Source: an uncultured Caryophanales bacterium
GTDB taxonomy: Bacteria; Bacillota_I; Bacilli_A; RFN20; CAG-826
DNA: 64,000 nucleotides
Assembly (NCBI GenBank): GCA_946407815.1
Contig: CAMJPB010000001.1
Span: 496,001 to 560,000, forward strand
Direction: 5' to 3'
Each line of letters begins with the position of its first letter. Positions within the stretch are counted from its first letter, which is position 1. Position numbers and translations under genes: made by a program. Under the pieces are notes generated by a model. The model did no database searches. It saw only the letters and a list, made by a program, of their open reading frames with translations, and was not told the origin of the DNA. Shown in pieces: positions 30,421 through 35,060 of the stretch.

Positions 30421-31283
30421 TTTCGATACCTCTGAGATTTAAATTCTAATTGGTTAAGTAACTTAATATATATTTCATAACCTTCCTTTGAAAGGTTACC
30501 TTTCGCTATTTCTTCTTTAATTTTACACTCTTTTTCATTTTGGTGAAGGCAATTTGAGAAATAACATTCTAAATAATACTTCTCGTAGCCCGGGAAATAC
30601 TGAGCAAGATCTTCTTTGTATAAATCAAGTTCTAGTGAAGAGAATCCTGGGGTGTCTCCGATAAATCCGTTTCTAAAAGGAAGCAGGATGACTTCTTTTG
30701 TTTGGTGTTTTCCTCTACCTAACGCTTCTGAATATTCACCAATTTTGCGGTTGAACTGAGGATAGATTAGGTTAATTGCAGAGCTCTTTCCAACACCAGT
30801 TTGACCCATAATAATTGTGGTCTTATCCGCCAAAAAACTCTGTAATTCCTGGACAATTTCTGTTTTTTCAGGGGAAAGTAGAAAAACTTTATAACCTAAT
30901 TTCTCAAGGTCGTTTTTAAGAGAAATAACTTTACTTTGATCCTCTAGTCTATCTAATTTCGTGAATAAAACTGCAGCAGGAATTCCATTTAAATTAGCGT
31001 ATGTCAAAAACTTATAAACAAGTTCTGGGGATAACTCAGGCTCCACTACTGACATCGTTATCATCATTAAATCAACGTTCGCTGATCTAGGACGAATTAA
31101 ATAATTTTTACGTTCGTGAGCTTCAAGGATTACGTTTTCTTTTTCATCAAAACTTACATTGTCTCCAGCGCATAATGAAAAGCTTTTATGTTTAATGATT
31201 CCACGAGAAAATAAATTATATGTTACATCATTTGAATATACTTTGTATATTCCACCTACTGTAGATAAAATTTTCCCTTCCAT
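30417..31283 (-). CDS. rsgA: Ribosome small-subunit GTPase RsgA
   Basis: Circularly permuted GTPase for late 30S maturation. OB fold (1-65), G4 TKLD (in VLFTKLDRL), then G1 GQTGVGKSS and G3 GDTPGFSS, and a C-terminal zinc finger (CYFSNCLHQNEKECK). 288 residues. Neighbour of the PrkC/PrpC pair; B. subtilis RsgA (CpgA) is phosphorylated by PrkC, so the arrangement fits a functional link. Confidence 0.96.
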   Translation of the reverse strand: MEGKILSTVGGIYKVYSNDVTYNLFSRGIIKHKSFSLCAGDNVSFDEKENVILEAHERKNYLIRPRSANVDLMMITMSVVEPELSPELVYKFLTYANLNGIPAAVLFTKLDRLEDQSKVISLKNDLEKLGYKVFLLSPEKTEIVQELQSFLADKTTIIMGQTGVGKSSAINLIYPQFNRKIGEYSEALGRGKHQTKEVILLPFRNGFIGDTPGFSSLELDLYKEDLAQYFPGYEKYYLECYFSNCLHQNEKECKIKEEIAKGNLSKEGYEIYIKLLNQLEFKSQRYRK

Positions 31284-32134
31284 TAAAAGAACCTTTTGAA
31301 CAATGAACGTTTTTGTTTTTTGCCAGATTGAAATGCCAAAATTGCGTTTTTAAATTCATTAGCATTTTTGTATCTATTTTTTGGATTTTTAGAGAGAGCT
31401 TTTAAGATGACTTCATCAATTTCTTCAGGAATAGAAGTTGAGAAGTTTGAAGGTCTTGGGCACTCTCTTTTTACTTGGGCTTGAGCAACTTCTTCTGTAC
31501 TTCCATCGAATGGCAAAACGCCTGTCACTAACTGGAAGAAAGTAATGCCGGCAGCATAAATATCTGATGAAACAGAGAATGGTTGACCAGTTAAAACTTC
31601 AGGGGCTAAAAAGTGCACAGAACCGAGAATTTTCCCGTGATTTTCCGCTTCTTTTTCATTTTTGGCGATTCCAAAATCCCCGAGTTTTACCACACCATTT
31701 GATAAATAGAACACGTTTTGAGGTTTAATGTCTCTATGAATAATTTTGTGTTCGTGAGTGTATTGAATTGCTTCCAAAAGTTGAAGCATGATTTGACATG
31801 ATTCTTTAACTGAAAACTTTGTGTAATACTCAATCTTGTCGAGTAAGGTCTCGCCTTTTAAATACTCGAGAACTAAATAAGGACGATTATTCCAAACACC
31901 TTCACTATAAATTTCCATGATGTTTGGGTGAGACATTTGAACGGATGATTTAACTTCTTTTTTAAAATCCGCCACCATTGTCGCATCATCTAAAAGTTCT
32001 TCTTTTAAGATTTTGACTGCAACAGTGTCGTCAGTGTAAATATCTTTACACTCAAAAACGACAGCCATACCGCCAGTTCCTAAGTGAGATAAAACGTTGT
32101 ATCTATTAGAAATTATGTCGCCAATTTTAATCAT
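31283..32134 (-). CDS. Hanks-type Ser/Thr protein kinase, PrkC-like but without membrane or PASTA domains
   Basis: Signalling kinase. Gly-rich loop LGTGGMAVVF, catalytic Lys in VAVKILKEE, HRDIKPQN loop and DFG (LGDFGIAK) are all intact, so it should be active. 283 residues from 32134; the protein ends in a short basic tail (KKQKRSLFKRFF) right after the kinase domain. B. subtilis PrkC continues with a transmembrane helix and three PASTA repeats that sense muropeptides; none is present here. The start overlaps prpC by 8 nt (ATGATTAA); an earlier in-frame ATG lies inside prpC. Confidence 0.92.
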   Translation of the reverse strand: MIKIGDIISNRYNVLSHLGTGGMAVVFECKDIYTDDTVAVKILKEELLDDATMVADFKKEVKSSVQMSHPNIMEIYSEGVWNNRPYLVLEYLKGETLLDKIEYYTKFSVKESCQIMLQLLEAIQYTHEHKIIHRDIKPQNVFYLSNGVVKLGDFGIAKNEKEAENHGKILGSVHFLAPEVLTGQPFSVSSDIYAAGITFFQLVTGVLPFDGSTEEVAQAQVKRECPRPSNFSTSIPEEIDEVILKALSKNPKNRYKNANEFKNAILAFQSGKKQKRSLFKRFF

Positions 32135-32873
32135 TCTTATATGGTTCCCAAATTGAAACAGCAATGTTGTCTGTTCCACCATTTGCTTTAGCAATTCCAA
32201 TTAAAGTTGAAATCTTTTGGTCTAATCTATCAGTAGATTTTAAAGCAGAATAAATTTGTTTATTCGATGCGTTATTATATAAACCATCCGAACAAAGCAT
32301 AATTGTCTTAGCTTCATTCTTAATAATTTTGTATTCATAGTCGACAGACTTATGTTGACCAACATAGTTCATCAAAAAATGTCTATCTTTTGAAGTTGTC
32401 TTTTGGTCTTCGCCAATCTCTTTTTTAGCGGCTAAATATTCAACATAAGTCTGATCTCTAGTGAGCTGGACGATTTTATCGTCATCTAGTTGATAACATC
32501 TTGAGTCACCAACGTTAACAATGAATATCTTATCTTTAAAAAAGATAGCCATTACTAAAGTTGTGCCCATGCCATTAAATTTCTCAGAGTCATTCGCCTC
32601 GTTCCAGACTGAGTGATTGATTGATTTAACAATCTTGTTAACCCAGTTTGTTATTTGTGACGCCATTAACCAACGTCTTTTACTCGTAAAAGCGGAGGTA
32701 ATTACATCAATAGCGATTTTGCTTGCAAAATCACCTTTCATGTATCCACCCATACCATCACATACGCAAAGTAAAACGTTTCCGTCAGCGTCGATTAAAG
32801 AAAGTGCCTTATCTTCATTAGAAGCACGTACTAAGCCGATATCAGTTTTTGATCCAAATCTTCCTTTAATCAT
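32127..32873 (-). CDS. prpC: PP2C-type Ser/Thr phosphatase PrpC
   Basis: Mn2+-dependent phosphatase that reverses the neighbouring kinase. PP2C motifs: ASNEDKA, CDGMGGY, NVGDSRCYQL and GGTDNIAV, carrying the metal-binding aspartates. 248 residues. Overlaps rlmN by 4 nt. Confidence 0.96.
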   Translation of the reverse strand: MIKGRFGSKTDIGLVRASNEDKALSLIDADGNVLLCVCDGMGGYMKGDFASKIAIDVITSAFTSKRRWLMASQITNWVNKIVKSINHSVWNEANDSEKFNGMGTTLVMAIFFKDKIFIVNVGDSRCYQLDDDKIVQLTRDQTYVEYLAAKKEIGEDQKTTSKDRHFLMNYVGQHKSVDYEYKIIKNEAKTIMLCSDGLYNNASNKQIYSALKSTDRLDQKISTLIGIAKANGGTDNIAVSIWEPYKND

Positions 32874-33907
32874 TTCTTTAAAATTTCCTTTGCTCTAAGT
32901 TGGCCGCAAGCGGCATCAATGTCGTTTCCAAATTCTTTTCTAACGGTTGTATTTACCCCGTGTTGCATGAGATATGAAAAGAAATTATGAACGTTTTTAT
33001 CTGAACTTCTTTTAAAAGAATGCTCATCAACTGGGTTGTATGGAATGAGGTTAATGTAAGACATTGTTCCTCTAACTAAATGCACAAGCTCTTTGGCGCA
33101 CTCGATCGAATCATTAATGCCATCGAGCATTATGTATTCAAATGTTACTCTTCTGCCTGCAGTTTTCTCATAATAACGAACTGCTTCCATAAGTTTATCC
33201 ATAGGATAAGCTTTTGAAATTGGCATGAGTTTATTTCTAATTTCGTCGTTTGGAGCGTGTAATGAAATTGCTAAGTTTGTTTGTAAACCTTCGTGTGCAT
33301 ACTTCATGATGCCTGGGACAAGACCACATGTAGAAACGCTTATGTGTCTTGCGCCTATAGCAAGTGCTTTAGGATGGTTAACGATACGAATAAAATCCAT
33401 TACGTTTTCGTAGTTATCGAAAGGTTCACCTGTTCCCATGACTACAATATGAGAAACATGCTTGCCTTCAGCTTCTAGAAGATTGTTCATTACCAAAACT
33501 TGGCCAACGATTTCATGCACTTCAAGGTTTCTTTTCTTCTTAAGAAGACCAGATGCACAGAAGGCACAGCCCATGTTACAGCCAACTTGAGAGGTAACGC
33601 ATATAGCGTTTCCATAGTTATAAGGCATTAATGCTGTTTCTATTTTTGAACCATCTTCAAGTTCGAGTAACAATTTTATTGTTCCGTCTTTCGAAACTTG
33701 TTTTTTATAAATTGTAGGGAGAGTTAAACAAAAGTCTCTATTTAACTCATCTCTAAATGCTTTAGAAACGTCGCTCATCTCGTCGAAAGTTTTAGCTTTC
33801 TTTTCATAAATCCACGTGAAAAGTTGTGTGGCGCGATATTTCTTTTGGCCACGGTCCATTAATAATTTTTCTAATTTGGTTATTTCTTGACCGTATAAAT
33901 TAATCAT
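32870..33907 (-). CDS. rlmN: 23S rRNA (adenine2503-C2)-methyltransferase RlmN
   Basis: Radical-SAM methyltransferase acting on 23S rRNA A2503 and some tRNAs. The 4Fe-4S motif CNMGCAFCASG is present, with GTGEPFDNY, ISVSTCG, and the methyl-carrying Cys near the C terminus (DAACGQLR). 345 residues, normal. Confidence 0.97.
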   Translation of the reverse strand: MINLYGQEITKLEKLLMDRGQKKYRATQLFTWIYEKKAKTFDEMSDVSKAFRDELNRDFCLTLPTIYKKQVSKDGTIKLLLELEDGSKIETALMPYNYGNAICVTSQVGCNMGCAFCASGLLKKKRNLEVHEIVGQVLVMNNLLEAEGKHVSHIVVMGTGEPFDNYENVMDFIRIVNHPKALAIGARHISVSTCGLVPGIMKYAHEGLQTNLAISLHAPNDEIRNKLMPISKAYPMDKLMEAVRYYEKTAGRRVTFEYIMLDGINDSIECAKELVHLVRGTMSYINLIPYNPVDEHSFKRSSDKNVHNFFSYLMQHGVNTTVRKEFGNDIDAACGQLRAKEILKK

Positions 33908-33910
33908 AGA

Positions 33911-34477
33911 TTAATGCTTGTGATGACAGCAGCATTCTCCTTCTTCACAATCACAATCTCCATCTTCGCAATCGCAATCATCACCGCATTCACATTCATG
34001 ACCTTCGTCGTGACAATGACAGTGATGTCCTTCGTTATAGGCTTCTTCGAGTTTCTTTTCCATACCTTCAAAAATATTGCCTTCGTAAAGTTCATCATCT
34101 TCATCAGATTCTTCAACATTTACAAGGTTCTCGTCTTTGATGTAACGAGGATAATCTTTATTCACAAATTCGTATTCATGATGTGAATGGAAATATTCAA
34201 ACACGACACGGACGTGAATTGAAAATTGTGCTAATGTTCTAAGTAGATACTTAGCAGCCTTATCTTCAAGAGGTTCATACTTTTCAGGAGCCTCGACTTT
34301 GATTAAAGCTTGCCAACTTGTTTGTTCTACAGCGTTATGGAAAACATATTCATCTGATGCGACGAATGCAATATTTTCTTCTTTGGTTTCAAAAAGTTGG
34401 GCTAAGTTTTCTGTGTGGTCTTTAGAATAATGACCAACAGTGTATTGATCTAAACCATAAACTGTAATTGTAATCAT
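33911..34477 (-). CDS. Unknown protein with a Cys/His/acid-rich metal-binding tail
   Basis: 188 residues. The first 150 have no cysteine and form a compact alpha/beta domain of no family I recognise, followed by an acidic linker (VEESDEDDELYEG). The last 38 residues hold all 11 cysteines and 8 histidines, mostly in CxC or HxC pairs mixed with Asp and Glu, ending CCCHHKH. This looks like a metallothionein-like or metallochaperone tail for Zn, Ni or Cu. No signal peptide. It sits 3 nt before rlmN and 10 nt after gmk, in the gmk-rlmN cluster, so co-expression with translation genes is likely. Confidence 0.8.
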   Translation of the reverse strand: MITITVYGLDQYTVGHYSKDHTENLAQLFETKEENIAFVASDEYVFHNAVEQTSWQALIKVEAPEKYEPLEDKAAKYLLRTLAQFSIHVRVVFEYFHSHHEYEFVNKDYPRYIKDENLVNVEESDEDDELYEGNIFEGMEKKLEEAYNEGHHCHCHDEGHECECGDDCDCEDGDCDCEEGECCCHHKH

Positions 34478-34487
34478 ATATTTGCCT

Positions 34488-35060
34488 CTACATTTTTGAT
34501 TTAATTATTTGACGAATTTCTTCAACTGCATCTTCAAGTTTGTCATTAATGACAACATACTTGTAGAACTTCTTATATTCAAGTTCTTTTGCGGCTGCTG
34601 AAACACGGTTATTAATGACTTCTTCTGACTCAGTTCCACGTCCTCTAAGTCTATTGCGTAATTCTTCTACTGAAGGAGGTGCAATAAAGATTGAAATGAC
34701 ATCTGGAACTTTCTTAAAGACGTTTTCTGCGCCTTTAACATCGATTTCAAGTAAGACGTTTTTACCTTCATTTCGCATGTCTTCGACTTTATCTCTTGGA
34801 GTGCCATAGCAGTTTCCAACATATTCTGCCCACTCAAGGAGATTGTCATTAGCGACTTGTTTCATGAAGTCTTCTTTAGTTACAAAGTAATATTCGCGAC
34901 CATTTACTTCACCTGGTCTCATGTTACGGGTTGTCATGGAAACTGAATAGAAAAGATTTAAATCTTTATCTTTCATTAATTCTTCTCTAACAGTGCCTTT
35001 ACCAACACCGCTTGGGCCAGACATGATCAATAATAGGCCCTTTTTCTTATTATTTTCCAT
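34488..35060 (-). CDS. gmk: Guanylate kinase
   Basis: Phosphorylates GMP to GDP. P-loop MSGPSGVGKGT, GMP-binding SMTTRNMRPGEVNGREYYFV, lid RGRGTESEE. 190 residues. First gene of the cluster running to 29.1 kb. The promoter (35069-35097) leaves only 8 nt before the ATG, so the message is predicted to be leaderless. Confidence 0.97.
   Translation of the reverse strand: MENNKKKGLLLIMSGPSGVGKGTVREELMKDKDLNLFYSVSMTTRNMRPGEVNGREYYFVTKEDFMKQVANDNLLEWAEYVGNCYGTPRDKVEDMRNEGKNVLLEIDVKGAENVFKKVPDVISIFIAPPSVEELRNRLRGRGTESEEVINNRVSAAAKELEYKKFYKYVVINDKLEDAVEEIRQIIKSKM

Follow-up and report, generated by a model that had tools for sequence, protein, structure and literature searches.

A divergent DUF1904 protein of uncultured gut Bacilli, probably a MIF-fold carrier of an evolvable metallothionein-like tail

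The gene designated X here (positions 33,911 to 34,477, minus strand) codes for a DUF1904-like protein of 188 amino acids with a Cys/His-rich C-terminal tail. It was found in the window, a term that denotes the whole stretch of 64,000 nucleotides that was analyzed. Judging from the sequence, and with moderate confidence, X is proposed to be a MIF-fold scaffold, probably trimeric, that carries an evolvable metallothionein-like buffer, probably for zinc. The evidence comes from the predicted fold of the N-terminal domain, the distribution of Cys/His-rich stretches among the orthologues, the codons that encode them and the likeness of the tails to known metal-binding sequences.

Reading frame, tail and N-terminal domain of X

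X is read from an ATG start codon and has orthologues that are detected by profile search. It is located between gmk and rlmN, as stated in an earlier note on this DNA: rlmN (32,870 to 33,907, minus strand; Pfam RlmN_N and Radical_SAM) starts at position 33,907, 3 bases past the stop codon of X, and the guanylate kinase gene gmk (34,488 to 35,060, minus strand; Pfam Guanylate_kin, 1.3e-52) ends at position 34,488, 10 bases upstream of X. Both genes are given as context only. The further statement that the corresponding cluster of B. subtilis has no such gene agrees with the absence of DUF1904 from all 14 control genomes, B. subtilis being among them, and with the gene order at the gmk-rlmN cluster of B. 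subtilis, which we take to be without an X-like gene. The window also codes for a PrkC-like kinase of 305 amino acids (31,283 to 32,200), which has its kinase domain at residues 34-278 and stops soon after this domain; the membrane and PASTA parts found in its B. subtilis counterpart are apparently missing.

By sequence comparison, the reading frame of X is real: it is open in the two nearest relatives, to which residues 1-150 are 84-85% identical, and the tail codons show synonymous differences from those of the nearest locus, L002. Two overlapping ORFs of 71 amino acids (in another frame of the minus strand) and 90 amino acids (antisense) were dismissed as genes because the relatives carry the X frame. 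An identity as the omega subunit of RNA polymerase, suggested by position alone, was rejected, as no profile support was found in Pfam or NCBIfam.

The tail comprises residues 151-188 (33,914 to 34,027, minus strand) and has the composition C11 H8 D7 E7 G4 K1, with 14 Asp/Glu in total. Its 11 Cys (positions 153, 155, 162, 164, 168, 170, 175, 177, 182, 183 and 184) make up 11 of the 38 residues and form four CxC pairs and one CCC, and 8 His are located at positions 151, 152, 154, 156, 160, 185, 186 and 188. The earlier note had placed 11 Cys and 8 His in the last 38 residues, which is correct; of the two, Cys alone is exclusive to the tail, with none in residues 1-150, as 7 of the 15 His are located in residues 1-150. 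With the residue frequencies of 12 neighbouring proteins, the chance of at least 11 Cys in 38 residues amounts to P ~1e-12 and that of at least 19 Cys + His to P ~7e-19. None of the 62 other non-overlapping ORFs of at least 80 amino acids in the window contains a stretch of at least 5 Cys + His in 15 amino acids.

The N domain (residues 1-112; 34,142 to 34,477, minus strand), previously described as unknown, could be assigned by fold prediction and profiles: it belongs to DUF1904 as a divergent member and, according to the model, adopts the MIF/tautomerase fold (beta-alpha-beta-beta-alpha-beta). In the AlphaFold2 model, built with 79 sequences, the pLDDT taken in blocks of ten residues is 92-98 up to residue 110 and about 50 in the tail, a low value that would be expected of a tail disordered in the absence of metal. 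In a fold search with this model, for which 1000 chains were aligned, the match spans residues 1-106. The best solved structure is a DUF1904 protein of Sebaldella termitidis (4m1a; Z 14.1, rmsd 2.1, 103 aligned residues, 18% identity), followed by the DUF1904 protein 1u9d of Vibrio cholerae (Z 12.1) and then by cis-CaaD-type and MIF proteins. On the level of profiles, the window protein scores 14.6 bits against DUF1904 (PF08921), for which the curated Pfam cut-off is 24.1; the family is matched at E<=0.05 by 64 of the 79 aligned relatives, and several X orthologues of the same family f1 pass the cut-off (e.g., in G148, G129, G033 and G235). Sequence-based searches against solved structures gave a lone weak and unrelated-looking profile match (8pjr, E 0.0011) and, with phmmer, nothing better than E 0.15.

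MIF-fold proteins of about the length of X are usually trimers. In all 138 distinct X relatives the protein starts with MI or MV (M-I in the window protein), i.e., the catalytic Pro-1 is absent, and ordinary proline-based tautomerase chemistry is therefore not expected. The N-terminal catalytic proline is the hallmark of the tautomerase superfamily; the parts of the superfamily paper used here report 346 sequences without Pro-1, of which 294 belong to another subgroup, and give their functions as unknown (PMC5818174). Among 22 DUF1904 loci examined from other families, 17 show an MP start; the other five have an unreadable start (L148, L159), are broken (L168) or are located inside longer proteins (L167, L172). 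Short DUF1904 proteins without long extensions occur in other families of the class (L144-L162), with MP starts in 17 of those examined, and one of these families, f11, has frames that require TGA to be read as an amino acid. X has the fold of the solved DUF1904 proteins (4m1a, 1u9d), and of the MIF/tautomerase superfamily in general, but lacks the Pro after the start Met. Unlike the solved DUF1904 proteins, it adds an acidic linker, a conserved motif and, in the window protein, the Cys/His tail. Tails of this kind are not mentioned in the parts of the superfamily paper used here, and the paper contains neither 4m1a nor 1u9d nor VC0714 as a term (PMC5818174).

The conserved motif ELYEGNIFEG (residues 129-138; 34,064 to 34,093, minus strand) is located in the acidic linker. 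Its family pattern is (Y/F)xG(N/D)xF, with G133 and F136 conserved to at least 90% in the alignment of 79 sequences. The motif may bind a partner; linker and motif together may resemble the tail of SSB, which binds PriA.

Cys/His stretches and gene neighbourhood in the order

X is a near-core protein of its order of uncultured gut Bacilli. By profile search, it is present in 182 of 193 genomes, a set made up of the window's genome and of others with a completeness of 85% or more. When 296 genomes from across the class were sampled, the profile of X found matches in 43, every one of them inside the order. A search with the single sequence recovered 42 of 59 relatives, which is an undercount, since family f4 has X according to the priA neighbourhood and the profile. 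The named records with X are uncultured Bacilli, titled Bacillales, Erysipelotrichaceae or Bacilli bacterium, many of them from rumen, gut or faeces.

Cys/His stretches were defined as at least 5 Cys + His in 15 residues beyond residue 104. In a non-random set of 138 distinct X proteins, 59 carry such a stretch. In 34 of these the stretch follows the motif, in 20 it lies in the acidic linker ahead of the motif, and in 5 the motif pattern was not recognised; the linker cases include stretches of His only, L032 being scored on His alone. The other 79 proteins have no Cys/His-dense stretch. The set contains 80 loci from a scan with a conserved peptide pattern (the best 80 of 118), and the rest are best hits or picks per genus; the fragment L042 was left out, L043 was missed by the profile, and the fused protein L249 was judged on residues 105-190 alone. 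Within the window's own genus, the tail was found by the same rule in 16 of 22 genomes with X. When the core domains of 101 proteins were placed on a tree, the tail state had to change at least 12 times and the linker state at least 9 times, gain being indistinguishable from loss by parsimony and L041 being labelled as tailed by hand. This tree is poorly resolved: it is based on few columns, leaves 37 of 97 inner branches open, has a bootstrap that did not settle and joins long branches to each other (L039/L041, L031/L033).

Taken from these sequences, the best reading of the Cys/His stretch is that of an evolvable add-on, which lineages gain, lose and move. As most distinct orthologues are without a stretch, metal binding cannot be the shared function of the family, and the conserved function must be something else; the tail can thus not be regarded as the defining trait of the protein. 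The situation that the earlier note had named as speaking against its proposal, N-domain homologues that mostly lack the tail, is indeed seen when distinct proteins are counted (79 of 138 in the non-random set). The metal-binding reading survives because such stretches turn up repeatedly, in two different places and in clades far apart from each other.

On the DNA level, a pattern for acidic CxCxxxCxC gave 7 matches in 4 of 59 genomes, all 7 in X, with 2 matches in the reversed control. The pattern CxCxxCxC matched 10 times in the window's genome, compared with 1 match in the reversed control, and the 5 matches read in frame are located in open frames of 16-32 residues. A search with the tail only matched 2 of 58 genomes, both times in X; its low-complexity query is weak, so that other tailed proteins could be missed.

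At the best 80 of 118 loci, the nearest recognised gene upstream of X is priA in 67 cases and gmk in 9 (unrecognised or contig end in 4), and on the downstream side rsmB comes first in 72 cases and rlmN in 6 (contig end in 2). By NCBIfam, the neighbours at L074 are PriA and RlmN above the cut-offs, and RsmB is pointed to below them. In f4, a divergent X orthologue follows priA in all 4 genomes searched. Seven other PriA loci listed have priA followed by RsmB-like or other genes, as judged by eye. In one f8 genome, the usual place of X between priA and an RsmB-like gene is taken by an ORF of 201 amino acids of no known kind (L185:669-1274), which does not match the X profile.

In the window the order is gmk-X-rlmN, and priA and rsmB are both absent there; both are also missing beside X in L064-L066. 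Since priA and rsmB flank X in most relatives, the arrangement of the window looks derived. PriA had no match in the window's genome (rated 45.5% complete), and the matches in G006 and G021 are weak (E 5e-7 to 9e-6); in the latter two genomes, X was not found by the search with the single sequence. In L249 (G456:C20), X is continuous with RsmB in one open frame (635 amino acids), whose RsmB part is 44% identical over 429 amino acids to the RsmB of L074. This may be a true fusion and a hint of a link to RsmB, or simply the result of a lost stop codon.

The steady site by priA and rsmB and the single frame of L249 would be in line with a metallochaperone, whose tail hands zinc (or iron) to a client encoded nearby, e.g., PriA, RsgA, RlmN or RsmB. 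A precedent is SlyD, whose tail is involved in metal delivery according to the parts of the SlyD paper used here (PMC7055735). We consider this role unlikely, as X persists without adjacent priA and rsmB in the window and in L064-L066, the incomplete window genome yielded no PriA, and the 79 distinct orthologues without a stretch have mostly the same neighbours; moreover, operon neighbours need not interact. For delivery to RsgA and RlmN in particular, as proposed earlier, no support was found, and the argument from the neighbourhood is weak, X being mostly located beside priA and rsmB.

Just as doubtful is a role as metal or redox sensor, in which metal loading or thiol oxidation of the tail or linker would alter the binding of the body or the motif and thereby tune a housekeeping function by metal or oxygen. 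In its favour, Cys/His stretches are found on both sides of the conserved motif, and for E. coli SlyD a reversible inhibition of the isomerase activity by Ni binding is described in the parts of the paper used here (PMC7055735). The motif, however, has no known partner, and it is kept in many orthologues without any stretch.

Selection on the Cys/His codons

The stretches could also be products of low-complexity growth, i.e., acidic linkers that expand by repeats and in which Cys/His runs arise without metal function and under little constraint. The length of the stretches is highly variable, a CDCDCDC run is found in L013 and three near-identical repeats in L181, and the stretch state changes often on the tree. 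The codons beyond residue 118 were compared in 10 pairs of relatives with no shared rows. Of 52 changed Cys/His codons, 31 are synonymous, far above the neutral share, which does not exceed 0.28 (p ~1e-6 or less for transition biases of up to 8). The estimate is a simple one-step one and takes no account of codon bias, indels or multiple hits. In the nearest pair, the window protein and L002, 12 of 15 differing Cys/His codons of the tail are synonymous.

On the level of residues, Cys/His sites are kept no better than the other sites of the tail and linker (97 of 118 vs 404 of 495, p 0.50; symmetric count, 10 pairs pooled), and they are kept more than other sites in 7 of 15 pairs; this lack of a difference is in line with low-complexity growth. 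An excess conservation of Cys/His, which a first one-sided count (15 pairs, sites taken by the residue of the first row) had favoured, was rejected, as the symmetric count shows none. In the one-sided count, five chosen pairs of the 15 gave p values of 0.027 (nearest pair), 0.23, 0.09, 0.13 and 0.57; for the nearest pair, the value rose to 0.21 in the symmetric count. The codon evidence, being a comparison of sequences, speaks against neutral drift of the region and not for a special status of Cys/His. The earlier claim of a metal-binding tail is supported in that the tail looks metal-binding and is under selection against neutral drift; its Cys/His are no better kept than their neighbours. 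Low-complexity growth is likewise improbable: besides the synonymous share, Cys is rare in the family core (0.6% of residues), and none of 433 flanking ORFs of at least 100 amino acids has a stretch in its last 45 residues (62 have one elsewhere).

Likeness to known metal-binding proteins and proposed role

The X family has dense CxC tail patterns in common with metallothioneins, of which SmtA represents a bacterial type. Unlike in metallothioneins, the tail of X is attached to a folded domain and is not a free small protein, and it is rich in His and acidic residues. In Helicobacter, Hpn and HspA are nickel storage proteins or tails with low-complexity His/Cys stretches, which are partly recent acquisitions; the metal-linked stretches are like those of X, whereas the carrier proteins are unrelated.

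The heaviest tails of the family are found in the f4 orthologues, with a dense Cys/His tail in all 4 genomes searched. One of these proteins (L181:3694-4407) is DUF1904-like (weak match, E 0.0011, below the cut-off) and has 41 Cys among 134 residues and three Cys-rich repeats that are almost identical. It matches Metallothio_5 (PF02067) with 31.0 bits in three stretches, the Pfam cut-off being 25, and by its sequence looks like a convergent metallothionein. PF02067 is presumably an insect family, so the match is attributed to similar Cys spacing rather than to descent. Of the other f4 proteins, L188 and L190 have no match in Pfam, and the matches of L191 are weak and to unrelated families. The window protein itself gave no metallothionein match in Pfam or NCBIfam at E<=10, a search in which the HMMER filters drop most weak matches.

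SlyD consists of a folded domain and a tail that is unstructured, differs between lineages and contains many His, Cys, Asp and Glu; this tail is also thought to store or buffer metal, as far as described in the parts of the paper used here (PMC7055735). X resembles this arrangement in its folded body and Cys/His/acidic tail. Unlike SlyD, it has no FKBP domain (Pfam reports DUF1904 alone at E<=10, and the model shows the MIF fold), and in the X family the stretch can precede a conserved motif in the linker. Regarding the metal, a delivery of nickel to [NiFe] hydrogenase was rejected as unlikely: no match over the cut-off was found in 59 relatives (one weak match below it in G032, E 6.9e-4), which makes nickel unlikely as the main client metal. 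ZnuA is present in 4 of the 59 relatives, which is suggestive only.

In the proposed role of X as a buffer-carrying scaffold, the trimeric body would present three acidic arms from one scaffold, which would pool 33 Cys and 24 His of the tails. With 11 Cys and 8 His apiece, the arms would each take up several metal ions of the soft or borderline type; Zn(II) is the most plausible, and Cu(I), Cd(II) and Ni(II) are further possibilities. The arms would act as a metallothionein-style buffer or store of metal in the cytoplasm, as is thought for the SlyD tail in the parts of the paper used here (PMC7055735). The conserved role of the body and the YxG(N/D)xF motif would be separate from the metal arm.

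A more far-reaching version can be put forward tentatively, with a rather low probability: the nearly order-wide, non-proline, tautomerase-fold trimer could be a hub and represent a new class of bacterial metallothionein carrier, whose arms evolved many times and in two places around a partner-binding motif, and whose metal loading tunes a housekeeping function encoded between priA and rsmB.

That unrelated proteins carry metal-binding tails is known; the present body, its locus and the recurrence are new as far as searched. Among the literature matches listed, with most subscription papers outside the scope, no report of a tautomerase-fold body with a Cys/His metal tail was found, and DUF1904 is named in a single paper of the literature covered, on Vibrio cholerae genomes. 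For DUF1904, of which solved structures exist, a subfamily that lacks Pro-1, spans nearly the whole order, keeps a steady locus and has metallothionein-like arms that change recurrently provides a first functional handle, and the orthologues with and without the arm form a natural series for measuring the effect of the arm. If the proposed role is true, the family would be a case in which metallothionein-like sequence arose repeatedly on the same carrier.
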